Positions 17,160 to 31,205 of a stretch of 64,000 bases of DNA are shown piece by piece. The stretch's first letter is position 1. Each line of letters starts with the position of its first letter. This DNA comes from Paramacrobiotus metropolitanus (Eukaryota; Tardigrada; Eutardigrada; Parachela; Macrobiotidae), in contig NW_026570229.1 in assembly GCF_019649055.1 (NCBI RefSeq), positions 248,001-312,000 on the forward strand. The letters run 5' to 3'. Position numbers and translations under genes: made by a program. The notes beneath the pieces were generated by a model. The model worked only from the letters and a program-made list of their open reading frames with translations, was not told the DNA's origin and ran no database searches.

Positions 17160-17570
17160 TTAGTCTTAGTGCGTTATTCCTGTTTTCACCCCCTCGGAGA
17201 CCCCTTCGGTAACCATATAGCGGGTGTTATGTATTCTTCTCATTGTGACCAACTTTTTTATAGTTGATTGCTTTATTTCTGTTTTCACCACCTCGGACAC
17301 CCCTTTGGAAACCGTACAGCGTTACGAATATTTTTAATCGTCGTTACTTAAGTTTTTTGTGTTTATGTTATGGGTAGTACGTTGCACTCGTACGTGTTAA
17401 GAAAAAGCAAAATGCGTAGCAGACGTTGCTGTGAAATTTCGGTTTTCCAAAGACATAAAATTCGACAGCGCTAAAATTATTGCAAGTTAAATATCGGTGG
17501 TCTAAATTTCACATCTGTTATTTTTGCGATATGTAGAAATCGCTTTGGTTGAGTAATAATTTGCAGAATT
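17160..17570. other. Polinton spacer before PolB
   Basis: No gene. Contains two copies of a CACC(C/A)CCTCGG...CCCCTT motif at about 17188 and 17288, which recurs in other Polinton introns and spacers. Confidence 0.5.
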
Positions 17571-17592: not shown

Positions 17593-20500
17593 TTTCGAAA
17601 ATGGATTACGATTTAACGGACGATGACCTTATTGATGCCGCAGCCTTGGCGGCCCTTGATGACTGGGTGTTTGATGACGGTTTAACTGATCAAGATAGGC
17701 TTGATGCTGCAGAGTTGGCAGGTTTAGATGACTGGATCGCTGACGAACCTCAAGCGGGAGCGGGTGTACCGAATGATTTTCGTGTAGCTGAACATGTCGC
17801 AGTAGAGCCCAGGGGTCACCGGTTTTCCAAGACCCAAAGTATGCATTTTTAAGCTTTTTCAAATTAGTGTCCATGATCTGGATGGCATAAGCTTTATTGA
17901 TGCTCCGGCAGTAATTGTGGCTGTGTTGGAGTACATTCTTGACACTGTTTTGGCTGGAGTAGCTCGTCACCAGTACGTCCGCGTGTCGGTGGATTCGGCT
18001 CATCTGTCGTTCCCTATCTGGACGCCACCAACACTGCGATCCCAGTTGACCGTACAGCGTTGGATGGCAGAGATATCCCAAGTGTTGAATTCCCATCAAG
18101 AGTTTGTCATAGATGGTTCTTTCGAAGTTTTGCTGGAGCATACGGAAATTCCTTCTGGTCGTTGTGTCCGGGACGTCCCTCCGATGCTGTACCAGAAGCT
18201 CAAGAAAATGACGTCAGTCATTTTGGTCAACAATGACGACGAGATCTGCATGGCCCGTGCCCTAGTAATTGGTAGAGCGTTTGCGGATGGTCAGAAGGAG
18301 TATGCCAGGCACATTGCCAAGGGTAAAAGGGAAATTCTTGCGTTGTCAAAGGACCTTATTAAAAAAGCCGGTCTGCCCATGCGTAAATATTCCCTGGCGG
18401 ACATTCCGGCTTTCGAGAATGTGCTTCGCGGTTACCAGGTCGTGGTTGTTAGTACCATGCAAGCCAACAGTATCGTGTACAGCGGAAAGCATGAAGAGAA
18501 GCATATTTGCCTGCTACTCCACAACCGCCACTTTGACGTGTTGACCTCCATGCCGGCTTTTTTTAATCGTGGCTACTGGTGCTTTGGGTGCAATAAGGGA
18601 AATAACGACCGACGAAACCATCGATGCAATGGCCAATGCAAACAGTGTCTCCGTTCCAACTGCTCCTTGGACACATCCAATATGCTGGCGTGCGGTGACT
18701 GCAATCGAAAATATCATGGACAGTCGTGTTTCGATCACCACAAACTGGGGCCCAGCGGCGAGAACCTATTTCACAACCGACGCAGCATATGCAGCACGGT
18801 AAAGCTTTGCCTACTGTGTGGCTCCATTTATTCCCTGCTCAAAAGAAAACCAGGAGCCGTTCACCGATGTGGAGAAATTTTTTGTAAGACCTGCCGGGAG
18901 CACGTTGTGGGCGACCATCGCTGCTACATGAAACCACACAAGCTGGGTCCGTTTCAGAAGATGCAGTACGCGGATGCCCAGTTTTTATTCTTCGATTTTG
19001 AAACGTATGTTGCTGATGATGGACGACTGTACCCGAACCTTGCGGAAAGTCTAAACGATCATTTTGTTGAAGTAAGATGTACCCCCTCGGGGACCCCCTC
19101 GAAATCTCATTGCTGATGCAGGTCGTACAGAATGATGAAGGCGAGGAATGGATCTTTCCGCCAGAGGGGGAACCACTGGGCGACATTACCGACTCACTTT
19201 GCCGATTTTTGTTCAGTGAAGATCATCGCGACCACATTGTTATAGCTCATAATTTCAAGGTAAATCGTTTTTAAGAATTTTTCCCGCCTACTTTTAACTG
19301 GTAGAAATTTTGTAGGCTTTTGATGGCTACTTTATTACCAACTGGCTGCTGAAGAATGGCATCATCCCCTGAGTGATTATGAATGGCGGCAAGATCATGC
19401 AGCTTGACGTGGGTCAACTGAATATTCGCTTCCGGGACAGCATTAATTATAATCCACAGAGCCTTTCAAAGTGGCTAGCGACATTTGGGATTGAAGACAC
19501 GTCTAAAGGTTTGTTCCCGCACCGCTTTAATCGACCAGAGAACTGGGATCAGGTCACAGAGTTCCCTTCCATGATGGAATACGGACATCAGTACATGAGC
19601 AAGAATGATCGTGAGGCCTTTGAGCAGTGGTACAAAGATGAAATCGCCGCCAAGCACAATACCTTCGATTTCCGAAAAGAGTTCGTGGATTACTGCAGCA
19701 ATGATGCTGCCGTCCTCCGCAAATGTTGTCTTCAGTTCCGAAACCTGTTTTTGGAAATTAGCAATGGAATCTGCCCATTTTTTTCCACGCTGACCATTGC
19801 GGGGCTATGCGGTCTGTACTGACGCAGCAGTATCCTCAAAGCCAACCAGATAGGATTGATCCCACTACAGGGATACCATTCCAATCGCAACCAATCCGTC
19901 AAAGCGCTGAAGTGCCTGCAATGGATGGAATTGGAAGAAAACTGCCAAATCCAGACGAGGGCATCGGGGGCAGAGTTCAAGATCGGTCAGTACTTTGTGG
20001 ATGGCTACTCTGCCGCAACGAATACAGTTTTTGAATTTCACGGTTGCTGGTTTCATGGATGTCCTGAATGCACTGCTCCTGACACGATACATCCATTCAG
20101 AAATCTTGCGATGACCAAGATTTACGAGGAAACCGTGCAGCGAGATGACTACATCCGCAGCCGGGGATACGGGCTCCATGTGATGTGGGAGCATGACTTC
20201 GACGGCCTTGTCAAAGAAGTGCCATGGTTTGGAGCTTACATTGAGGAAATTACCGTGTGCCAACCTACTAACCCCGCGACGCGTTCTACGGCGGCCAGAC
20301 GAACGCCACAAAACTTTTTCACAGTGTAACAGGAGAAGAAAAAATTCGGTATTTTGACGCCTGCAGCGAGTATCCCTATGTGAACAAGAACAAGCGGTAT
20401 CCCATCGGCCACCCGACCATTATCGTTAAAGAATTCGACACAGTGACTGATTATTTTGGGATCATTCACTGTGAAATTGTTCCTCCGGCCGACCTGTATC

Positions 20501-21797
20501 TTCCAGTTCTTCCATACCGTAGTAATGGAAAACTCGTCTTTCCTCTTTGTCGGACTTGTGCGGAGACCCAACATAACGCACCATGTGGACACTCTGAGAA
20601 CGAAAGGGCCCTCTCTGGGACATGGTGTAAGTAAAATTAAAAACCTCTTCGGTAAACGTTTCTTGCAGGTACACCGGAGATACATGCAGCTATTGATCGC
20701 GGCTACGTCGTGACAAGAGTTTTTGAAGTGTGGCACTTTGAGCAGACCGAAGAGAGATTATTCGCCGATTACATTGACCGTTTTCTTAAAATCAAGACCG
20801 AAGCAAGTGGATGGCCAGCTGATGTTGTCACAGACCAACAAAAGGACCAGTACGTGCGGGATTTCCATGACCACGAGGGTATTGAGTTGGACCGGGAGAA
20901 AGTGGAAAGTAACCCGGGCATGCGGTCGCTTGCCAAACTGTGTCTTAACAGGTATTATATTTTTTATATGACTTTATTAAATATTAGTCATTATTATTAT
21001 TGCTTGTAGCTTCTGGGGACGCCTTGGTATGCAAGATAATAAGCCGAACACCAAGTACATTTCCTCTCCAGAAGAATTCTACAAGATGCTTCTTTCTGGA
21101 GAATACCACATTCAGTCGTGGGACATGTTCAGTGACGACGTTCTGCAATTGGCGTATACGAAGGAGAACCTGTTTGTGGAGCAGAATCCGCATACCAACG
21201 TCGTCTTGGCTGCGTAAGTGTTTGCCCCTTTTGTTTTTGCAATTGCGGCTCGAACTTTGATATTTTATCAGGTTTACCACCTGTTGGGCGCGGTTGCACC
21301 TTTATGGTTATATGGAACAAGTGCAGGACAGACTGTTGTACTTTGACACTGGTAAGATTTGAAAGGCCGGTTCTGCAAACATGTGAATATGATATGGGTT
21401 TGCAGATTCCATAATTTTCGTGGATAAACCTGGATCACCAACGCCGCCGACTGGCAAATTCCTGGGCGACCTTACGGATGAGCTGCAGCCCGGTCAGTTC
21501 ATTAGTCAGTTCGTCAGCCTGGGACCGAAGACATACTCGTACAAGACCAACGATGGGAAGAGCGTAGTAAAGGTGAAAGGCTTCACGCTAAACGGGCACA
21601 CCAGCGAGATCATCACCTTTGAGAAAATGGTGGACGTGTTGGAGAAGAAAACGGATTTTCTTGTTGCGGAATACCCTGACAGCATCCAGCGCGTTAAAAA
21701 ATCTATGACTTTAAAACAAGTTGATCTGGCTAAACGGCTGAGTTTTACTTATGATAAACGTAGAATTGTTAATACTAATTGGAATACTCTGCCTTAA
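17593..21797 (+). pseudogene. Protein-primed family B DNA polymerase (PolB) of the Polinton
   Basis: Long multi-exon gene. The N-terminal part has an acidic start with repeated ALDDW/GLDDW units, then a cysteine-rich zinc-binding block (CFGCNKG, CNGQCKQC, CGDC, CLLCGS, CKTC). The exonuclease domain shows FLFFDFETYV (Exo I), IVIAHNFK with FDGYF in the next exon (Exo II) and DYCSNDAAVLRKC (Exo III). Polymerase motifs include YPYVNKNKRYPIGHP (motif A region), NSFWGRLG (motif B region) and LLYFDTDSII (motif C, catalytic DTDS). Introns with GT-AG ends separate several pieces (for example around 20630-20668, 20950-21009, 21214-21271 and 21350-21405). The enzyme would replicate the element from a terminal protein primer. 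Motif content is complete, and it is one of the better preserved genes of this fossil. Confidence 0.92.
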
Positions 21798-21854: not shown

Positions 21855-22370
21855 TCATTTTATTGGTAACATTAACACCAGATCAATCAAAGCCCATGTC
21901 AAATCGACTTCTGTCTTAGCACCTAAAAAGTTACATCGACCACTGGCGAATAAAATAGCCGTACATTCTGGCATCTTAATTCGTAAACCCAAAAAACGAT
22001 CAGCGAAATATGGAAAATTAAGCTTCTTACTGACAGCATCGAGATCAAACCGCTGACCAAAGTCATGCGTGCCCACAATGTTGACCACCTTAAAGTCAGT
22101 GACACAACATACGTATCTGATTTTAGACAGAAACCGTATAAAATATTCCAAAAGAAAACGCGATTCGACCAAATCCTTTCCGCCGTTCACGGTCACTTTA
22201 CCGTTGACATACAGCTGACAATGCGCTTTAGGCGGTAGTATACGACGCAGGAGGAGCCCGGAAAAGGATCGAGGGATGTATTGAGCCAACGGCAAGCGTT
22301 TTTCAATGTCATTCAAGTTCAGTTGGCAGTTCAGCTTTGCGGTGGCCACAACATTGGTGATCCGTACCAT
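21855..22370 (-). CDS. TATA-binding-protein-like two-repeat protein in the Polinton
   Basis: A 171-residue frame with the two-repeat layout of TBP. Repeat 1 (residues about 3-88) reads ITNVVATAKLNCQLNLNDIE, then YIPRSFSGLLLR and QLYVNGKVTVNGGKD, aligning with the TBP blocks I.NIVSTVNL.C.LDL, Y.P.RF.AVIMR and LIF.SGK.V.TGAKS. Repeat 2 (about 92-171) reads DFKVVNIVGTHDFG, FPYFADRFLGLRIKM and ILFASGRCNFLGAKTE, aligning with FKIQN.VGS.D, ELFPGLIYRM and LIFVSGKVVLTGAK. TBP nucleates transcription pre-initiation complexes at TATA-like promoters. A copy in a Polinton could drive late or element-specific transcription. It ends just past PolB, tail to tail. Conservation of the phenylalanine pairs that bend DNA is only partial. 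Identification rests on pattern recognition, not a search. Confidence 0.75.
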   Translation of the reverse strand: MVRITNVVATAKLNCQLNLNDIEKRLPLAQYIPRSFSGLLLRRILPPKAHCQLYVNGKVTVNGGKDLVESRFLLEYFIRFLSKIRYVCCVTDFKVVNIVGTHDFGQRFDLDAVSKKLNFPYFADRFLGLRIKMPECTAILFASGRCNFLGAKTEVDLTWALIDLVLMLPIK

Positions 22371-22386
22371 TCTTATGCAACCACAA

Positions 22387-22804
22387 TCAACAGTTGAGAG
22401 CCTTTCGCTGGGTGGTTTGCACCGCAGAAGTCAGTCGTCGAAACGTTGGACAATGATAGTCCTCCAAGTTGATGACTTCCGGCAAGTACTTTTCCAGGAG
22501 GCGACACTTTTCCAACCATTTGGCGTAGAAGGTAACGTCAGCTGGACGTCCGGTTCGTTCAAAAATATCTTCAAACACTACCGCCGTCTGGTTGTGGCGA
22601 TTTACCGTAGGTGTGCCAAATGAATCCATGAGAATTGCGCGCCTGCTTTTCCAAATCTCTTGCGCAATGAGAGGCACCGCGCGGTAGCGTAAAAGTATAT
22701 AGTCCCACTTCTCCTTTTTCAAGACAAAAGAACGATAGCTGCTTCATGAACTTCTGTTGGTTAATAACAAACCAATCAGCATCAAGAACACAACTAAGAG
22801 CCAT
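22387..22804 (-). CDS. Polinton frames upstream of the TBP-like gene, possibly exonuclease-like
   Basis: Two minus-strand frames (22804-22571 and 22722-22387) look coding. The first begins MALSCVLDADWFVINQQKFM and ends near HGFIWHTYGKSPQPD. The second contains ILMDSFGTPTVNR, VTFYAKWLEKCRLLEKYLPE and INLEDYHCP. This pattern (an initial D-x-D/E-like strand, a HG..W..G turn, a later 'K..LL...L..v.NLE..gCP' block) resembles an uncharacterised exonuclease-like domain seen in insect and element proteins. Whether these frames belong to the TBP-like gene through introns or form a separate gene cannot be settled by eye. Confidence 0.35.
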
Positions 22805-22809
22805 TTTTG

Positions 22810-23170
22810 AACTGAACCCACTGAACTTTAATAACCTTACTCTTTTGTACTTTGGCGGGGATCCACGTTTGGAAAAAACGCGTAGCTGAATGCTATGAAA
22901 AACGGGGTGAAAAAAGTCTTTTCACGTACGTTCCGATACAAACTTTCCCTAAAATGCGCAACAGAACGCTACGAAAAGCTGGTGAAAAATCCTAAATGCG
23001 CACGTACGAGTGCGAAGTTTTCCTGAAACTCACAGCAAGGTGCTGTGAAAAAACCTTTTTACGAACTTTTCGGATGACGGACAACCCATAAAAAGCTCAA
23101 GCGAGTGTAGTTTGCCACTTTAGTTGTTCAGTGTTTTTTTCAATTTTCTCTAACAGTTTTCTCTGCATCA
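22810..23170. promoter_or_regulatory. Divergent spacer between the minus-strand and plus-strand Polinton gene blocks
   Basis: About 360 bp without coding potential separates a minus-strand gene start (22804) from a plus-strand start (23176), so it should carry both promoters. It contains two diverged copies of a unit of roughly 110 bp (around 22880-22960 and 22965-23060, sharing GCT(A/G)(T/C)GAAAA...GGTGAAAAA). No consensus element is identified. Confidence 0.4.
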
Positions 23171-23175
23171 ACGCC

Positions 23176-24205
23176 ATGGAGTTTATTCCCGATTTTATTT
23201 CGTCCGAGCGCACCATGTCCCCAAAGCCTTCAACCAGTGGAGCCGCCCGTGAGATTCCTGCTACGCCGCTGAAGCCACGAACATTTGCAAAGCGCCGCGC
23301 TCCGGAAATGGACGACGCCAAGCTGAACCTGACCAAGAAGTTCAAAGAGACAGAGATCACCAAGCATCCCCGCCTTGCGTTCATCCATGAAGGTTCCAAC
23401 GTGTACAAGATTGGTTTCGAGAAGTATGCGTACGCCCGCTTCCAGGACGGAGTCTCTGCCATCGTCATTGGTGAATGGAAGAAGCAGAGCGACGACACCT
23501 ACCGCCGCACCCTTGAGAAGTCCATCACGGTCAAGAAACCCGGATTCATGCGTCTGTGTGCACTGATTATGAGCGGAAAGGCCGACCTGGACAAAATTTC
23601 CCAGCTTAGCAGCGGTACCGACGGCAAGTTGGCGCCCTTGTATGCCTTGGAAAGTGGACTGTACTTTGGATGGGGGCGCTACAACCGTGTCAACACGACC
23701 ACCGTCCGTCGTTATACACTTGGGAACAACGGGGACCTAATTCCGACCAAAGCGGGTGTGACCTTTGGACTCAAAACTTACGAAGGACTGAAGGAGCTGG
23801 TGGTGGACATGACGTTACTGAAAGAGCTTTTTGTTGTGGACGAAGCCAACCACGTCCCAATGACCTTAAAGTCCGCTCTGGCATACGACAAGTTGAAAGA
23901 AGTGAGTTCTTATTTCCCTGTGTTGTACAGTAGTCCATGTGCATTGTTTTGTAAAGGAAGTGGCTGAATAGTTCACGGAGCTCATCTACCAGATGCGTGG
24001 ACGAAAAGGCAAGATGGTGTGCGGGAGTGCCGACGATGACGAATGGGCTGCAGCTGAAAAAGCTATTTTGGAGTCGCGCTATGTGGAGGCTGTTCTGCTG
24101 GAAGCTGATCAAGTGGACATTGGGCAAGTTATTGGATTGGACGTTAAAGGGTATTTGGAACTTAATGCCCTGGAGTTTCGTGCCATGTTTGCTAAGCTCA
24201 TTTAA
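23176..24205 (+). CDS. Polinton protein with PC4-like core (tentative)
   Basis: The start is taken at the ATG in GCCATGGAG. The first exon runs to about 23900 and a short second exon (about 23958-24205) ends LELNALEFRAMFAKLI. The N-terminus is Ser/Pro/Lys-rich (residues 1-70) and includes a basic stretch, KPRTFAKRRAPEMDD. Residues about 88-150 (YKIGFEKYAYARFQDGVSAI, GEWKK, ITVKKPGFMRLCALI) resemble the transcription cofactor PC4/Sub1, which binds ssDNA: a KYVSVR-like strand, an F.G...I.IREW strand, then K.GI.L....W..L. The remainder (residues 150-260) is unassigned. If right, this is a second transcription-factor-like gene next to the TBP-like gene. It could equally be an unrelated Polinton protein. 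Confidence 0.4.
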
Positions 24206-24281: not shown

Positions 24282-24814
24282 TCAGTTTTTTTCTTTATTT
24301 TTTTTTTCTGTAATGCGTTTACATATCTGACGGATAAATGCATCGTCGATCACTTTGGTATTTATGTCAAAAACCGAATTAACATACTGACAGACCATTT
24401 TGTCGTTGCTTGCTCGGTTATCGGTAAACAAATGCACAATATTGGTATAAGACTCGCCGCTAACACGCCGAAGAATAAAAAACAAACAATACTGCCCACA
24501 CACGGTAGAATATTCAGATTGAAATTGTTCGGACTGCTGTATAATCCGATTTGATGAAATCAAATTATCAAAGTCTTCGGAATACGAATCCAGTTTCCTC
24601 CCAAACGAATCGAACACTTCCAAAAGGCCATGTTCTTCTTGATAGAAAGCAATCCAGTGCGATCCGTCTTAGTCCGCTGGATCAATGTTGACCACCGCCG
24701 CTCCAGGGTAGGGCAAAAGTTCACTAGGCACTTCGTTGCTGGCGTAAACTCCACGTAGCACTGTCTTTGTAGCCGGATTCGACTGCAGTGCATTCAGAAT
24801 CTGGTCGGTGTTCA
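24282..24814 (-). pseudogene. Adenovirus-like cysteine protease (PRO) of the Polinton
   Basis: Begins MNTDQILNALQ at 24814. Recognisable blocks are GSHWIAFY (catalytic histidine), LEVFDSFGRKLD and YSTVCGQYCLFFILRR (the C-GxYC catalytic cysteine region). These are the hallmarks of Polinton/adenovirus maturation proteases, which process capsid proteins. It lies just downstream of the major capsid gene in the minus-strand block. It is part of a broken element. Confidence 0.85.
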
Positions 24815-26147
24815 TGTTGAAAAGTCCGCAATCAACTGGCGATGCTGGTTTATTTCAATAATGCTGTCGTACACCAACATGGCGACCATCATGACTGTTT
24901 TATCCAGAGGCTTCTCAAAGCTGACCGACACGCTTAAATTGCCCTGTTTCACCAAAGTGAGCGGTCCTTTTCCAGTATGTCCCGGTGTCAGGTCAAAGCC
25001 AAAGAACGTGTAGCCATTGTTATAAGCGGTCCGATTGAAATTGACGCTGTTTTGAGGATGCGTTCGGTGGCCCAGGGTGTCCAGTAAACCATCGTAGCAC
25101 TCCAGCGACTGCGAACGCCCAAAGTCGGCAGTGTAAGGTTTTGTTGGATAGCTCTGACCGTCCACCTCCACACTGATCTGCGTAATGTTGAAATGTTGAA
25201 AGTTGAAGGGATTAGTTTTGAGGCTGCCGTGAAAATCATCGCTTTCCAGGAATCCGACGAACATTACTTTGGGAATCTGCCCGATCTGGAGGTTGCTCAC
25301 CACGGTACTTTGAGTTTTTTGGGGAATATCCGACACCCGCATCACCACGCGTTCAATGTGATACTTGACAGTTTTTTTCAGCATCTCCGCGGCCAAGCCG
25401 TCATAAAGTCTGGTGCCAAAATGTATCGGCGGATGGACAAGCGCGCATTCCGAATGAATGGTTTGAACTGCTTGGTGGCATCGGTATCCCACACTCGCAA
25501 ACAAAATTCTGGCCGACTCATTACCAAGCATTATTGATGGGCACGCCGGTGCACAGCGGTTTGCTTTGGTCAAACAGGTCCTCAAAGATTTTTCCAGAGA
25601 GTTGCACGTAGTTGCTGCCAGCAAACAAGGCCTTGCGATTGACTTCGCCTTTGTTGTCCTTTTCGTCATTCATCTTGGAGGCGGTGTCGGGGTAGAAAGC
25701 GGCTGATGTTAACTGGCTTTTTTGTGCATCTACCGAATAGCAAAGCGTCGAGTCCATGTACGCCCGATATGGGTAAAATGTAGCGGCATCCGAGATCAGT
25801 CGATTGACCACGGTAATGTGGCATGATGAAAACAGTGAGTGCAGAAAATTGTTGACGGGTGCCACATTGGCGGTGTTGGTCATCAGCGTTCAATCACCAG
25901 CTCCTTTCTTTACTTTGATGCCAACCTCCAGTTCCAGAATCATATCCGCCAAGCTAAGTAGACCAGATGTACTGGGCAGAATATAGAAATTGATATCGCC
26001 CGCTGGGCCGTTATCTGTGAGAATCGTTGTTGGGTTCAGCTTTTCATGCTCGGTGCGCCAACGGTCGGTCAACGTAGCTGGTAAGGCAAAGAGCTGATTC
26101 TCCAATTGCATTGCCGGTTCGGAATTTTCCATCATGAGCAGAGCCAT
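24812..26147 (-). pseudogene. Major capsid protein (double jelly-roll) of the Polinton
   Basis: The N-terminal blocks (DLFALP-like QLFALPATLTDRW, LADMILELEVGIKVKKG, NFLHSLFSSCHITVVN, YPYRAYMDSTLCYSVDAQK) and C-terminal blocks (RVVMRVSDIPQ, FQHFNITQISVEVDGQSYP, FFGFDLTPGHTG, NLSVSVSFEKPLDKTVMMVA) match the arrangement seen in Polinton major capsid proteins. The FDLTPGHTG segment followed by an SVSFEKPL strand is typical of the C-terminal jelly roll. The protein spans several frames here and is treated as a fossil. Confidence 0.85.
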
Positions 26148-26149
26148 AG

Positions 26150-26548
26150 TTAATAGTAATCCGCGATAATCGTCGGAGGAATGCGTTTAATGCGTTGTCG
26201 GTTGCGTACAACACGGCGTTTCTTACGGATACCACTTCCTTCTTGAGGTGCTAAGCGTTTACTGATGCTCTCTTTAGCTCTATCAGCAACCTCTTTAATG
26301 GCCCCGGTAGCAGCTTCTTGCAAATGGGGCGTGGCGGCATCCAACGCAGCTTTGGCATGCGGTGCGGCCTGGCGGATTATAGGCTTGGCGAAAGACGATA
26401 TTCTGGCGAACAAACTCTTCAGAATCTGTGGGAGGCCGGAACCGTTTTGCAGTGTGCCGCGGTACCGAATAAGGGCGCTTCCTCCTGTTTGGCTGACGAA
26501 CACGTCGTCGTACCGCCGAGGATCAGGCACGTACTGTACAAAAGGCAT
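26150..26548 (-). CDS. Small structural Polinton protein, pVI/pX-like
   Basis: 132-residue frame starting MPFVQYVPDPRRYDDVFV, with a GSGLPQILKSLFARI amphipathic stretch, an alanine-rich helix and a strongly basic C-terminus (GIRKKRRVVRNRQRIKR). It sits between the two capsid genes, where Polintons and adenoviruses keep minor internal capsid proteins. The amphipathic segment suggests membrane interaction and the basic tail suggests DNA binding; both are inferences. Confidence 0.55.
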   Translation of the reverse strand: MPFVQYVPDPRRYDDVFVSQTGGSALIRYRGTLQNGSGLPQILKSLFARISSFAKPIIRQAAPHAKAALDAATPHLQEAATGAIKEVADRAKESISKRLAPQEGSGIRKKRRVVRNRQRIKRIPPTIIADYY

Positions 26549-26652: not shown

Positions 26653-27387
26653 TTAAAAATGCTGTCGGAGAAAAGGAACATAATGCGGAATGTCGAAACG
26701 TGCTTCCACGGTTTTATTCACTTCGCCTCTAATAGGTACGGGACGCAGAAATTGCGCCGCTGTGTCTCCGATCAAACCATAGTCAGCCACGTCGCTGTAA
26801 ACGAATAAGCTTTGGTTTCCCAGGAAAGTGTTGGGCCGGTCGGAAATGAACGTAGTTGTTTTCGGTGGCGGAGCTTTGTCCCAGAATGCTGAGTATTTAG
26901 CTCTTGCCTGATCTTGGGCGGTGTCAATGGATTCAGCAGAAACGTTCGGCTCGAATTGGCTCTGATCAAAACCCAGAATCTTTTGCAGGGTCCAAGATTC
27001 AGGCGGAAAGCTGACGGATACCCGGTCATTCCCAATGCTGAGTTTCACCTTATGGTTGGTTGGCGTAAAGAACTGCACTTCAAACATTTTATTGTTCAGC
27101 AGCGCACTTCTATCGTGAATCACTTTTCCGTCCAGTAAATGCGTTTTTATGACAGGGGCCAGCGTGTTGATGGTTTGCAGAAGCAGCTCAGCGTTCTTGT
27201 AATTGCCCGGTGGCACAACAATGCTTTTTTGGGCACTGACATATCTTGGGATGTCGATAAATTCACCGTCTTTCTTCAAATAAAATTCTCGCACAACATC
27301 CAGTTGGATTTTCTGCTCAACGGGTAGTGTATAAAAAGAATTCAGATACTGCAGCTCCACCAGTGCCATTTCCCACTTCCCTTTCAA
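26653..27387 (-). CDS. Minor capsid (penton) protein of the Polinton
   Basis: 244-residue frame. It starts GKWEMALVELQYLNSFYTLP, the common 'G.wevaLvEi.yp' start of Polinton minor capsid proteins, and later has NTFLGNQSLFVYSDVADYGL, IGDTAAQFLRPVP and a C-terminal FDIPHYVPFLRQHF. These blocks match the single jelly-roll penton protein. It lies directly between the small structural gene and the integrase. The frame looks uninterrupted. Confidence 0.85.
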   Translation of the reverse strand: MKGKWEMALVELQYLNSFYTLPVEQKIQLDVVREFYLKKDGEFIDIPRYVSAQKSIVVPPGNYKNAELLLQTINTLAPVIKTHLLDGKVIHDRSALLNNKMFEVQFFTPTNHKVKLSIGNDRVSVSFPPESWTLQKILGFDQSQFEPNVSAESIDTAQDQARAKYSAFWDKAPPPKTTTFISDRPNTFLGNQSLFVYSDVADYGLIGDTAAQFLRPVPIRGEVNKTVEARFDIPHYVPFLRQHF

Positions 27388-27464: not shown

Positions 27465-28592
27465 TTAAGTAGAATGGCGCACCTTCAAACATTTTTCATG
27501 TATCCACTGATCGTGTTCCGGTCCGTATCCCAACCAACGCACAAGGACTTTCTTTCCACGGCGCTTGACAATAAAATCCACAGTATGATCTTTGTCAGTA
27601 ACGTTGCGCACCAGCGATAACTCGGGTTCGTATAACTTTCCTTCAATGGTGTTGTCTTGATAGTCCTTCAAAAGGTAGACCGGAACTGGGTGCGGAATGA
27701 TTTGCTTAATAAAAAATATCTACTCCTTAAATCGGTACGTGTATCCCTTTTCCATTTTGCCTTTCCGGATGGAAATGCGCACCGCATCATCAACTTGTAC
27801 CGTGGTTTTTTTACTTTCACAGCCGGGTACATCTTGTTGAACACGAGCAACGAATTTTCCTGCTTGACATCAACGGGTCGCATTCCATGAGCGCTGTGCA
27901 CCGAGTGATTGTACGAATGCACAAAATCTGATAATTTGTCAATGTACCGGGTGCTTATACGGTAGCGAAATAGCCGAAAAATCCGTGATTTAATCGTTCC
28001 AATCACTCGTTCGGCCATGGCACATTTCACATCCTCGTTTTGCGAAGTAAAGAATTGTACGTCGTGTTCTTTGAGAAACGCCCGGACAGTTGCGTTTAAC
28101 ACTTCAGTGCCCTTGTCGTATTGTAGCTTTTCCGGTCGACCCAATTCTTCAAAGGATTTCTGGAGAGCGTCACGTGTTTCTTTACCGGTCTTTGTCTTCA
28201 AGGCTTGGACGCTTAGCATTTTGGAGAAGCAATCAATCACAAATAACAGATATTTGATGCCATCATTTTCCTTGAAGTATTTGGACAAATCGGCTGAATC
28301 AGCTTGGTACTGCTGCCGCAGATTGGTAACTATCACTGGATTGCGTGGAAATCGTGTCCGGCTTTCTTTGGTGACAGTGTATGCATCGATCTCTTGCAAC
28401 ATCTCCTCGGCTTTCCGTTTGTTCGCTCTGGTCTTTAGTGATCTTCGAAAGCGCTCGACGCCGCCAAAACTTCCGGGATGATGGGGGTCTAGGTATCTCT
28501 TCATCAAGCGATCCATCGTTGCAACAATTTGACACACAGTTGATCTTGAAAAATCGGCACAACCGAATAACTGACGGCAAAAATCCAGACAT
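27465..28592 (-). pseudogene. Retroviral-type integrase with C-terminal chromodomain (INT) of the Polinton
   Basis: The core frame (28537-27668) contains the DDE/RNase H-like fold: YQADSADLSKY (first D), KYLLFVIDCFSKML, LQYDKGTEVLN (second D), then the downstream helix with CAMAERVIGTIKSRI (catalytic E) and YNHSVHSAHGMRPVDV. A chromodomain follows at 27671-27465 (VDFIVKRRGKKVLVRWLGYG and WIHEKCLKV). Chromodomains on integrases target modified histones. The gene lies between the minor capsid gene and two accessory genes, on the same strand as both. Confidence 0.88.
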
Positions 28593-28996
28593 TACGACAA
28601 CGTTATCCAGTTAACTTTGCGCTTCATGCCTCCTTGCTGTTCACGTGACAGCAAGCGCGGAATGGGTATTGGTTCATCAGGCTTCTCTTTGGGTCGACTG
28701 GGTCGAGGTTTCTTTAGGGGTGATGGGGGTACTGGCGGTTGGTATTTGGGTGGTTCAACCGGATTTTCATCGGGCATCACTCTTTGTTTCAGAGCAAGGA
28801 ATCGTTCCAGTATACTAGATAGTTGACTGGCTTTCTCGTACTCGCTTATATCTTTTCGCTGTAGGGTTTCGGCAACTAAACTGTCTAATAAGACGACGGC
28901 TTTGGCTTCCGGAGGCTCGCGGTTGACTTGAATCTTTTCATGAAGTCGCTCCTCCATAACGCGGCGAGGAACAATGAAATACTCATCCATTACCAA
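28592..28996 (-). CDS. Accessory Polinton protein, proline-rich, unidentified
   Basis: 134-residue frame with a helical, charged N-terminal half (LLDSLVAETLQRKDISEYEK, ASQLSSILERFLALKQRV) followed by a proline-rich linker (PPKYQPPVPPSPLKKPRPSR) and a basic end. It overlaps the preceding gene by a few bases, suggesting tight packing. I do not recognise a family. Confidence 0.5.
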   Translation of the reverse strand: MVMDEYFIVPRRVMEERLHEKIQVNREPPEAKAVVLLDSLVAETLQRKDISEYEKASQLSSILERFLALKQRVMPDENPVEPPKYQPPVPPSPLKKPRPSRPKEKPDEPIPIPRLLSREQQGGMKRKVNWITLS

Positions 28997-29402
28997 TTAA
29001 CGAGGTCAGTACACCGGCTATAACAGGTAGACTAGCACCCAAGAATCCGCCTTGCTGCAAAATCCGCTTTTTAGCTTTCATTGGGTACCGTCGCAGCGCT
29101 AACAGCTTTAATGCTTTGCGATGACGTTTACACTTGTCGAGATCGGCGAACGACAGGCTGACGGTATTTTTAATGATGTTGACGGCAATCTCCTCCAAGG
29201 CTTTAAGCTGCGGCTTGTTGACAAATCCCATCAAGACGCGGCGCTGTTTTGGCTTCAGGCCTTTCAAGGTAATTAAAAATGGGGCAAGGGCTTTCACGCG
29301 TTCCGACATGGTTTCGGTATATCGTTGGAATTGGCTTTCACAAATATCCGCATAGACTGTGTCGGAAGTGAGTGTGATCTCACCCTTAAATACTCCGGGC
29401 AC
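28983..29402 (-). CDS. Conserved Polinton protein with C-terminal QGGFLG hydrophobic tail
   Basis: 139 residues. The central part is Lys/Arg-rich (KRHRKALKLLALRRYPMKAK), and the C-terminus reads KKRILQQGGFLGASLPVIAG followed by a hydrophobic stretch. An 'L.Q.GGFL..L' tail is a recurrent feature, from memory, of one accessory protein in metazoan Polintons, and suggests membrane or capsid association. It precedes the proline-rich gene with a small overlap and follows the ATPase. Confidence 0.6.
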   Translation of the reverse strand: MPGVFKGEITLTSDTVYADICESQFQRYTETMSERVKALAPFLITLKGLKPKQRRVLMGFVNKPQLKALEEIAVNIIKNTVSLSFADLDKCKRHRKALKLLALRRYPMKAKKRILQQGGFLGASLPVIAGVLTSLIGNG

Positions 29403-29419
29403 ATTGAACGCATATCGAT

Positions 29420-29974
29420 AATGAGCGGTTCATACGGCTCGGATGTAACTTTGCGGTACGCCTCCGGCAGCTGATTGAGCCCAGTTTGGCGCGCGAGCAG
29501 TTTAATTTAATTAATATCACGCACATTTTTGAATAAAACAAGATATTGGGAATTGAGCCTGATGTCTCTCATCGACTTTCCCTGCTTATAAAGGTTTTGC
29601 AACAGTCACACAACCGAAACGTTTTTATGATGAATGCCACGCGTGAACAAGTTTGAGCAGCGCACGTCTTTACAGATATCACTAGCCAGATCGTCGATAA
29701 TCAACAACGTGTGCAGATTGGGGTAAAAAAAATTCGGTGTTTCAAAGACAGTCTCAATGCCTTTGACGAAATCAACGGAATCCTGCACTTCATCAAACGA
29801 TTTTTGCCATTCACCATAAAAGTACACTACTCGATCGGGAAACGGACAAATCATTTGCGCGCGGTTTTTAATTAAAGACAGCACAAACTGCGTTTTACCC
29901 GACATTGTCGGCCCACAAACACACAAACCAAAGGGCGCCTGAAAGCGCGGGTGTTCTTTTAAAACACTATACAT
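29420..29974 (-). pseudogene. Genome-packaging ATPase (A32/FtsK-HerA-like) of the Polinton
   Basis: The frame from 29974 contains the Walker A GPTMSGKTQFVLSLI (residues about 20-35) and the Walker B HTLLIIDDLASD (about 93-104), with FTRGIHHKNVSVV as the following conserved block. This is the layout of Polinton and NCLDV packaging ATPases. The C-terminal portion continues toward 29420. It lies between the BIR region and the QGGFLG gene. Confidence 0.85.
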
Positions 29975-30014: not shown

Positions 30015-30975
30015 TTAATACAAACAACACAAACTTTTACACTCAGGCTGCCGGGAACGGTGGACCTCCTCCGGATCGTCGCCCTTTTTCCAGTTGTCCA
30101 CTACCAATCCGCAATACACGCACTCAGCCGTGTTCCCCCAATTACACTGGAATCCAGCTGCAGCTAGTCGCACTGGATGGACTATCTCAGATTTCCAGCT
30201 GTCTGGATAGGATGCCAAGCGCTCTTCGGTCGTTTTCATGTCTTTGGGAGGTTGTAGAGCGTCTTCTTCGCAGCAGAAACATATGAAACCGTTGCTCGGC
30301 CCTTGCCGGTCCTACAAATCTTTGACACGGTAACTGGTAGCGTTGGCTCTCTTCTCTAGGTCGCGAATCTCTTCAATGGCTTCCGGACCAAGACGACTGA
30401 CAACCACTGGGCAATGAGGGCGGTAGCGGGCATGGTGAACGTCAAATTGTTCGTACGGTAGTAAATCCCTCAATCCCAGTCCGCAGTGATAACAGTGGCT
30501 GAGGTTGGACCAGGTGTAGGAAAATCCCGCAGCAGCCATGTCCTCCTTTGTCTGTGTGGTAAACAGCCGGTTCTTGACATGGTTAAAGCTGTTTAGACGG
30601 GCAAGATAGTGCGCCATCCGAGGATTATACGGAGCCATTTGTACTGTAAAACAAAGTTCATTAAAGCACTGATGTTGGGATCAACACAATCAAAACGCAC
30701 ATTCAGTTAGTACTCCTGCCAATATTGGTTCAGATCCCGAAGCTTCGCCGCGTACGCCGGTCGCAGGGCTTGCAAGTACCGACAGTCCGGATTGTATGTC
30801 GCGTGCTCCTTCCAGAAATCGTCGCCCCAGTCAGCGGACGCCAGACGGTGACCGCAACAGAAACACTTGACGCAGACACAACCCTAGTCGGGCACGTAGA
30901 TGTAACCGGCTTCGGCCAACCGACGGGGAATACGGATGTGAGAATTAAACCTTTCAACTGGATATGTCAACAGAC
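30015..30975 (-). CDS. BIR-domain (IAP-like) gene region in the Polinton, three BIR modules
   Basis: Three minus-strand segments each carry a BIR pattern (A.AGF.y......v.C..Cg........d....H....p.C). Module 1 lies at about 30950-30722 (LAEAGYIYVP, CFCCGHRL, WKEHATYNPDC). Module 2 is at 30638-30312 (MAAAGFSYTWSNLSHCYHCG, VHHARYRPHCPVV). Module 3 is at 30239-30015 (LAAAGFQCNWGNTAECVYCG, VHRSRQPEC). The C-x2-C...H...C zinc ligands are visible in each. BIR proteins bind caspases or IAP antagonists and are used by large DNA viruses to block apoptosis. Whether these are one spliced gene or three genes is unclear. No RING domain is seen. Confidence 0.75.
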
Positions 30976-31205
30976 GGCTTTCGACTGTGCTATAGACACA
31001 TGTACCGTAAGACTCCATTGCATAAGAAACCTGAATACCACAAATGAAGATTCACTATGCCCGGTTGAAGATTTTATACCATCTCTATGCTACGCATTTT
31101 ACCTCTTTTTCACACGTTACTCCTGTGAAAATTTTCTTTTCCATACATGTTAGCCCACCCCCACAGCTCACTCATGTTGAATCGTGTTTACAAAAATCTT
31201 TAGCG

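Follow-up and report, generated by a model that had tools for sequence, protein, structure and literature searches.

Why would a Polinton carry a gene for a TATA-binding protein (TBP), and what would the protein do there? The window analysed here is a 64,000-nucleotide stretch of the Paramacrobiotus metropolitanus genome (contig C9:248001-312000; assembly of 169.8 Mb in 533 contigs), and the gene in question is an open frame of 171 codons at positions 21855-22370 on the minus strand; the plus-strand frame over the same interval is riddled with stops. An earlier note, made from the letters alone, had read the two TBP repeats, in order, from this frame. That reading holds. The Pfam family PF00352 matches the frame over two stretches at 4.5e-29 and 100.6 bits (cut-off 22.9), and the best match in a sequence search of the PDB is yeast TBP (3.4e-21); both are far above chance. 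Each repeat contains an F..L..R-type strand and a (S/N)GK..G(A/G)K-type block: SFSGLLLRR with NGKVTVNGGK, and RFLGLRIK with SGRCNFLGAK. The TBP saddle, which the earlier note had proposed as a check, is seen in an AlphaFold2 model calculated from a 37-row alignment (A3) with a mean pLDDT of 96.5. Foldseek ranks human TBP (1cdw) first for this model (TMq 0.84, 27% identity), all 44 PDB matches at E ≤0.001 are TBPs or TBP-containing entries, and unrelated folds appear only from E 1.7e-3 on. Thus, the frame encodes a true two-repeat TBP, and its identity is secure.

The genes around the TBP gene are those of a Polinton, as the earlier note had supposed. Convergent with the TBP gene is a PolB region made up of several open pieces (17917-21797, plus strand; PF03175 at 19373-19822), in which GT..AG interruptions made out by eye near 21214-21271 point to short introns. 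Directly upstream of the TBP gene lies g22.4 (22387-22804, minus), a conserved gene with no assigned function whose frame is broken in the window copy and which overlaps the TBP start in locus L031. Beyond it, a region defined by its position (22805-23175) separates g22.4 and the TBP gene from a divergently oriented PC4-like gene (23176-23967, plus). The following genes are all on the minus strand: a partial protease-type gene (24282-24623), which has no Pfam protease match and owes its name to its position and to protease-type motifs; the major capsid protein gene (24812-25883), broken into two frames (25521-25883 and 24812-25669), whose database relatives are labelled F54H12.2-like, a label that we take to denote a capsid role; the small conserved gene g26.1 (26150-26548); a minor capsid candidate (26653-27387), named by position and with no Pfam match; an rve integrase gene (27668-28537; PF00665, 1.9e-12); two further small conserved genes, g28.6 and g29.0 (28592-29402); a piece of the packaging ATPase gene (29606-29974; PF04665 Pox_A32, 7.8e-5, its 22.7 bits falling just below the cut-off of 22.8); and a piece of a gene with a BIR (IAP) domain (30312-30638; PF00653, 8.5e-9). 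A second BIR-like domain can be made out by eye past a stop codon, down to about 30010 on the same strand, at the end of the element. A candidate short terminal inverted repeat of 30 nt (83% identity) has its left arm at 17392-17421 on the plus strand and its right arm at 31088-31117. Local alignment of the two outer regions, a search for longer terminal repeats, scored 36.5 against a shuffle maximum of 43, and terminal repeats are therefore not established. PolB, the integrase, the packaging ATPase (a weak match) and the capsid genes (recognised via their relatives) nevertheless stand together in the window. Compared with relatives, the reading frames for the capsid protein, the integrase, PolB and g22.4 are interrupted or shortened, and the TBP frame is full length. 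The element is a decayed Polinton of P. metropolitanus.

Is the TBP gene peculiar to this copy? Searches of the genome with PF00352 (150 of 493 candidates scored), with the TBP query P0001 (150 of 282) and with the divergent element TBP L051 (150 of 285) merge into at least 228 TBP places, a figure that includes fragments and is not a gene count; in the P0001 search, 131 of 150 rows, fragments again included, are free of internal stops. Parallel searches gave at least 136 capsid places (136 of 452 candidates scored) and at least 130 merged integrase places (135 of 811 scored). A TBP place lies within 15 kb of 121 of the 136 listed capsid places and 116 of the 130 listed integrase places, and within 8 kb of 117 of the 136 capsid places, as compared with a fraction of about 0.02 expected if places were evenly spread. 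Conversely, 156 of the 228 TBP places have a capsid or integrase place within 15 kb among the matches listed; the other 72 have none listed, and one of these is the host's own gene on C4. Capsid and TBP places within 9 kb of one another fall into three main arrangements: same strand with the capsid gene followed by TBP 2-3 kb further downstream (63), same strand with TBP 6-7 kb upstream (26), and opposite strand with TBP 6-7 kb upstream (22), with 7 arranged otherwise and 18 capsid places having no TBP at that distance. Fifteen capsid places have no TBP place within 15 kb, and a few of them are near contig starts (for example, C31:3259 and C390:4147).

The same neighbourhood was followed gene by gene with tblastn, using pieces of the window, in 20 loci of 10 kb chosen for having a TBP place with a capsid or integrase match nearby. 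In all 20, g22.4 and the PC4-like gene flank the TBP gene in constant order and orientation, the g22.4/PC4 stretch being shortened in L034. A PolB match adjoins the TBP gene on its other side in 16 of the 20, so that the gene recurs beside PolB within this genome, which was the second check proposed by the earlier note; tblastn gave no PolB match in L036, L037, L042 and L050, though the stretch extends 2.4 kb beyond TBP. Capsid and protease matches are each present in 19 of 20 loci, both missing from L043, and the capsid match is displaced far off in L047; integrase matches are present in 17, with none in L033, L047 and L048. TBP is securely a standard, core gene of a large Polinton lineage.

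Similar proteins are found outside this genome. A protein profile search with A1 returned 438 proteins, of which the best 120 were listed; the 67 rows that score at least 160 bits, P0062 of the tardigrade itself among them, make up what we call the Polinton-type set, as a rule at 38-57% identity, and cellular TBPs follow at 141 bits and lower, mingled with short fragments. Among the matches listed, metagenome proteins of the Polinton type whose contigs reach 12 kb or more come from contigs of ten sizes. Three of these sizes (20,036, 21,688 and 27,637 bases) recur, with the same source, among the listed capsid relatives (120 of 199), and TBP and capsid genes thus appear, judged from shared size and source, to lie on the same three metagenome contigs. 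Scans of viral contigs with P0001 and A1 found no Polinton-type TBP.

How are the element TBPs related to the TBP of their host? On one account, the element recently took up the TBP gene of the tardigrade itself and has no use for it; all that speaks for this account is the presence of a TBP in the host, an animal. We calculated a tree of 83 sequences (24 tardigrade element TBPs, 32 of the 66 metagenome rows, 14 cellular TBPs, the host piece and 12 IMG/VR sequences; IQ-TREE, LG+G4). Element TBPs and those from metagenomes come together in a single group (support 74/78, or 98.7/100 once the fish protein P0110 is included), and the tardigrade element TBPs are scattered among the metagenome ones. 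In contrast, the host TBP piece on C4 groups with animal TBPs, apart from the element TBPs. Of 13 TBPs found in IMG/VR, the 12 in the tree are placed away from this Polinton-type group; their contigs are unclassified, and no named mirusvirus TBP is in the tree. The tree is midpoint-rooted, and its deep supports are low.

Selection on the gene is likewise at odds with a useless passenger. Among 741 pairs of element TBPs, 39 have dS between 0.02 and 1.0 (Nei-Gojobori with Jukes-Cantor correction; the pairs are not independent). At dS 0.1-1, dN/dS is 0.04-0.23 in 16 of 19 pairs, and the three exceptions (0.30, 0.45 and 0.71) involve L012 and L018, whose ends do not seem to be in frame. Below dS 0.1, the ratio spans 0.10 to 1.03 across 20 pairs, and all values of at least 0.76 involve L012. 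The window copy and its nearest relative, L031, give 0.48 at dS 0.04 (8 replacement and 5 silent changes), as expected after insertion. Judged by these ratios, most moderately diverged element TBP pairs are under purifying selection. Recent capture is contradicted by the tree, by this constraint and by the substitutions common to the whole family, described next, and we consider it very improbable.

Which residues distinguish the Polinton-type TBPs? We compared 56 of them with 15 cellular TBPs, transferring yeast numbering by alignment. We take N69, T124, N159 and T215 to be base contacts of TBP and positions 114, 122, 124, 203, 205, 213 and 215 to face the bases. The asparagines are retained (N69 in 51 of 56, with 4 gaps; N159 in 55), and so are the kinking aromatics F99 (55), F190 (56) and F207 (56), with F116 replaced by Tyr in 51; the window copy has Phe, Tyr, Phe and Phe at intercalating positions 99, 116, 190 and 207. 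The base-facing positions are replaced throughout the family: L114 by Gln (53/56), V122 by Thr (52/56), T124 by Asn (55/56), V203 by Thr (43/56), L205 by Val (48/56), V213 by Asn (54/56) and T215 by Leu (55/56). Leaving F116Y aside, we treat Q114, T122, N124, T203, V205, N213 and L215 as a seven-residue signature. Six or all seven of these residues occur in 51 of 56 Polinton-type TBPs (22 of 24 tardigrade, 29 of 32 metagenome), the two lowest tardigrade sequences having three and four, as compared with at most two in 14 cellular TBPs and at most one in the 12 IMG/VR TBPs. The window copy has six, with Ile at 205. Of its base contacts, both asparagines are kept, T124 is Asn and T215 is Leu, so that the case for a TATA preference is weaker and TBP ancestry is unaffected. 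We suggest that the site preference of the element TBP is probably altered relative to that of the host TBP. The fish protein P0110 (Channa argus), a fast-evolving TBP-like sequence, resembles the Polinton-type TBPs at T122, T203 and Y116 but has M114, T124, T205, S213 and S215, and so holds two of the seven signature residues; its placement with the Polinton clade (98.7/100) reflects either long-branch attraction or a real relationship.

We propose, as the probable function, that the element TBP and the PC4-like protein direct the host's RNA polymerase II and TFIIB to promoters of the element itself with a changed site preference. Polintons are not known to carry an RNA polymerase. First, the element would make its own TBP together with the neighbouring PC4-like protein. 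Second, this TBP would recruit host polymerase II and TFIIB to element promoters, which would include TATA-like boxes between the PC4-like and g22.4/TBP genes. Third, the reworked minor-groove face would confer a site preference unlike that of host TBP. The same protein might instead act mainly against the host: by competition with the host's TBP/TFIID, TFIIA or TFIIB, or by titrating them away, it would damp host transcription or evade silencing. TBP places of the element type (>200, fragments included) vastly exceed the host's own TBP in this one tardigrade genome, and such a copy number would suit interference. So would a weakening of regulator positions, by which the protein might escape host regulators: basic TBP positions such as R137, which presumably serve regulators in cellular TBPs, are conserved there (R137 in 14 of 15) and mixed in the Polinton type. 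The DNA-facing surface, however, is conserved within the family and unlike that of host TBP, which fits a separate set of sites better than competition for the host's, and we regard interference as unlikely.

In the window, the divergent region between g22.4 and the PC4-like gene holds two TATA-like boxes, identified by consensus match: TACAAAAG (22842-22849, minus), upstream of g22.4/TBP and followed some 27 nt on by an initiator-like TTCAGT seen by eye, and CATAAAAA (23087-23094, plus), 89 nt upstream of the PC4-like ATG. The corresponding region was resolved in 20 of 21 sequences (not in L034), and 18 were used, L038 and L049 being left out for want of clear starts. Of these 18 regions, 10 have a relaxed TATA box, [TC]A[TC]AAAA[AG], on the PC4-like side (shuffle mean 1.6) and 7 have one on the g22.4 side (shuffle mean 1.3), with 0 of 300 shuffles as high on either side; strict TATAAAA occurs in 6 of 18 on the PC4-like side (mean 0.7, 0/300) and 2 of 18 on the g22.4 side (mean 0.6, 37/300), and TTCAGT in 5 of 18 (14/300) and 6 of 18 (2/300), respectively. 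All these counts are judged against shuffles; they come from seven patterns per side, picked after viewing, and from regions that are not independent, several being close copies and some having uncertain gene starts. Host TBP could equally read these TATA-like boxes, which counts against our proposal.

Short palindromic repeat arrays, seen by eye and varying among lineages, occupy the same intergenic region in L041 and L044-L047; they are a possible enhancer or origin. They bear on another account, in which the saddle would serve as a mark on the origin or the ends of the element, or would organise its DNA, and has no part in transcription. Possibly origin-like repeats in several lineages would fit such a role in replication or packaging, as would a PC4-like neighbour, PC4 being a family of single-strand binders. 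On the other side, the TATA-like boxes lie at promoter distances, and both PC4 and TBP are transcription factors in cells; we see slim prospects for this account.

Motif searches upstream of other element genes, in one of which starts were located for 1 to 19 of 21 sequences per gene, did not reveal a preferred binding site for the element TBP, nor a common non-TATA motif upstream of the capsid genes across element copies. TGTAAA sites were considered because the family has two of the three changes of the TGTA-reading mutant TBPm3. One candidate, TGTAAAAG, precedes the ATPase ATG by about 61 nt in the window and by a similar distance in L034, and its surroundings are found again at other places, seven in all with that in the window; we rejected it as a promoter because in the window it codes for part of a BIR domain, with the codons for E-C-K-S just before a stop. 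No other systematic placement of TGTAAA was found in the upstream scan. A second candidate, TATTTAAG, which follows the TATTWAA pattern of the herpesvirus-type box, precedes the integrase ATG by about 35 nt in one clade, where it is invariant, at synonymous sites too; it is not a rule upstream of the other genes scanned, is absent from the window copy, and is at best a weak lead to a putative promoter box. A scan for synonymous constraint gave signals mostly at gene overlaps and alignment edges. In L040, L043-L046 and L049, a small frame, M.G.LPSVLRLCRIFKINCVS.CCN, overlaps the integrase start in another frame and contains TATTTAAG.

What partners are available to the element TBP? For the gene beside TBP, the match to the PC4 family (PF02229) stays under the curated cut-off in the window copy; of seven relatives tested, four exceed it. 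A search of the genome gave 10 PC4 matches, 9 of them within 1.6 kb of an element TBP; the tenth and strongest, 17.6 kb from the nearest, is taken as the host gene. A seeming second, N-terminal PC4-like half can be seen by eye in the PC4-like gene of L036, L040, L042, L044 and relatives (23176-23967 in the window). The genome has just three TFIIB matches, one each on C45, C100 and C28, contigs that carry no listed TBP, capsid or integrase place, and no TFIIB match was found at the elements. At the positions that we take to be the TFIIB contacts of the TBP stirrup, the Polinton type has E186 in 25 of 56, E188 in 50 and Leu or Ile at 189 in 47; the window copy reads Phe, Ala, Asp and Arg at 186-189 and matches none of E186, E188 and L189. 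The variable contacts, the failure to find a TFIIB match at any element or a common non-TATA motif upstream of the capsid genes, and the PolB match missing beside TBP in 4 of 20 loci stand against our proposal. According to passages of a survey of double-stranded DNA viruses, almost all viral TBPs are accompanied by a viral TFIIB and are argued to be unlikely to use that of the host (PMC7221094); elements with no TFIIB match contrast with this pattern, which counts against a reliance on host TFIIB.

Set beside the observed fold, recurrence, synteny, purifying selection, separate clade and altered DNA-facing residues, transcription of the element's own promoters with changed specificity is, we infer, the best-supported function. 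More tentatively, widespread animal-associated Polintons may possess a private polymerase II promoter code, consisting of a TBP, a PC4-like factor and sites ignored by host TBP, that evolved independently of, but parallel to, the herpesvirus late-gene system; we hold this possible, somewhat short of probable. A core TBP with a conserved, non-cellular DNA face makes it testable whether small integrating animal viruses use a promoter code of their own. Furthermore, the element TBPs offer many natural variants for studying how DNA specificity changes in a highly conserved transcription factor.

Finally, how does the Polinton TBP compare with known systems? It shares with cellular TBP, TRF and TBPL the two-repeat saddle, the intercalating aromatics, N69 and N159, and differs from the four cellular TBPs in A3 by its low identity to them (26-29%) and by its family-wide changes at DNA-facing positions. 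The surrounding element resembles the vertebrate Mavericks/Polintons, described with int, polB, atp, pro, and major and minor capsid genes (PMC8097293), and the terms TBP and TATA are absent from the main text of that paper and from that of a survey of double jelly-roll viruses (PMC11071308). Among titles, opening lines and passages of the open-licence PMC papers listed we met no earlier description of a TBP in Polintons. Virus-encoded TBPs as such are reported from mirusviruses, with passages of one paper giving 59% of genomes (PMC10132985), from African swine fever virus (B263R; PMC5825884) and, sporadically, from elements of putative mirusvirus origin in an alga (PMC10675990); BFVD matches of the element TBP include giant-virus TBPs. 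The 12 IMG/VR viral TBPs, from unclassified contigs, are unlike the Polinton type in falling outside its clade and in holding at most one of the seven signature residues. A laboratory mutant, TBPm3, reads TGTA, as reported in passages of PMC4466886, and two of its three changes, V203T and L205V, recur in Polinton TBPs when matched by spacing from I194 (Thr and Ile in the window copy); the third, Ile to Phe, is absent from Polinton TBPs, where the residue is mostly Ser, Ala or Arg, and TGTA reading by them is putative. The nearest functional parallel is the late-gene TBP mimic of beta- and gamma-herpesviruses, whose mode of action that of the element TBP would resemble, but with a complete stand-alone TBP. 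As described in passages of PMC12529657, KSHV ORF24 has a TBP-like saddle, kinking aromatics and altered TFIIB contacts, as does the Polinton TBP; it uses host polymerase II, and at its TBP interface the hydrophobic contacts give way to polar ones, rich in asparagine, that late genes require. ORF24 is a multidomain protein of 752 residues that acts with other viral factors at TATTWAA sites, whereas the Polinton protein is a stand-alone core of 171 residues with a clearly cellular-TBP-like sequence. The asparagine replacements in the two proteins would represent convergence in kind rather than at demonstrably identical positions.
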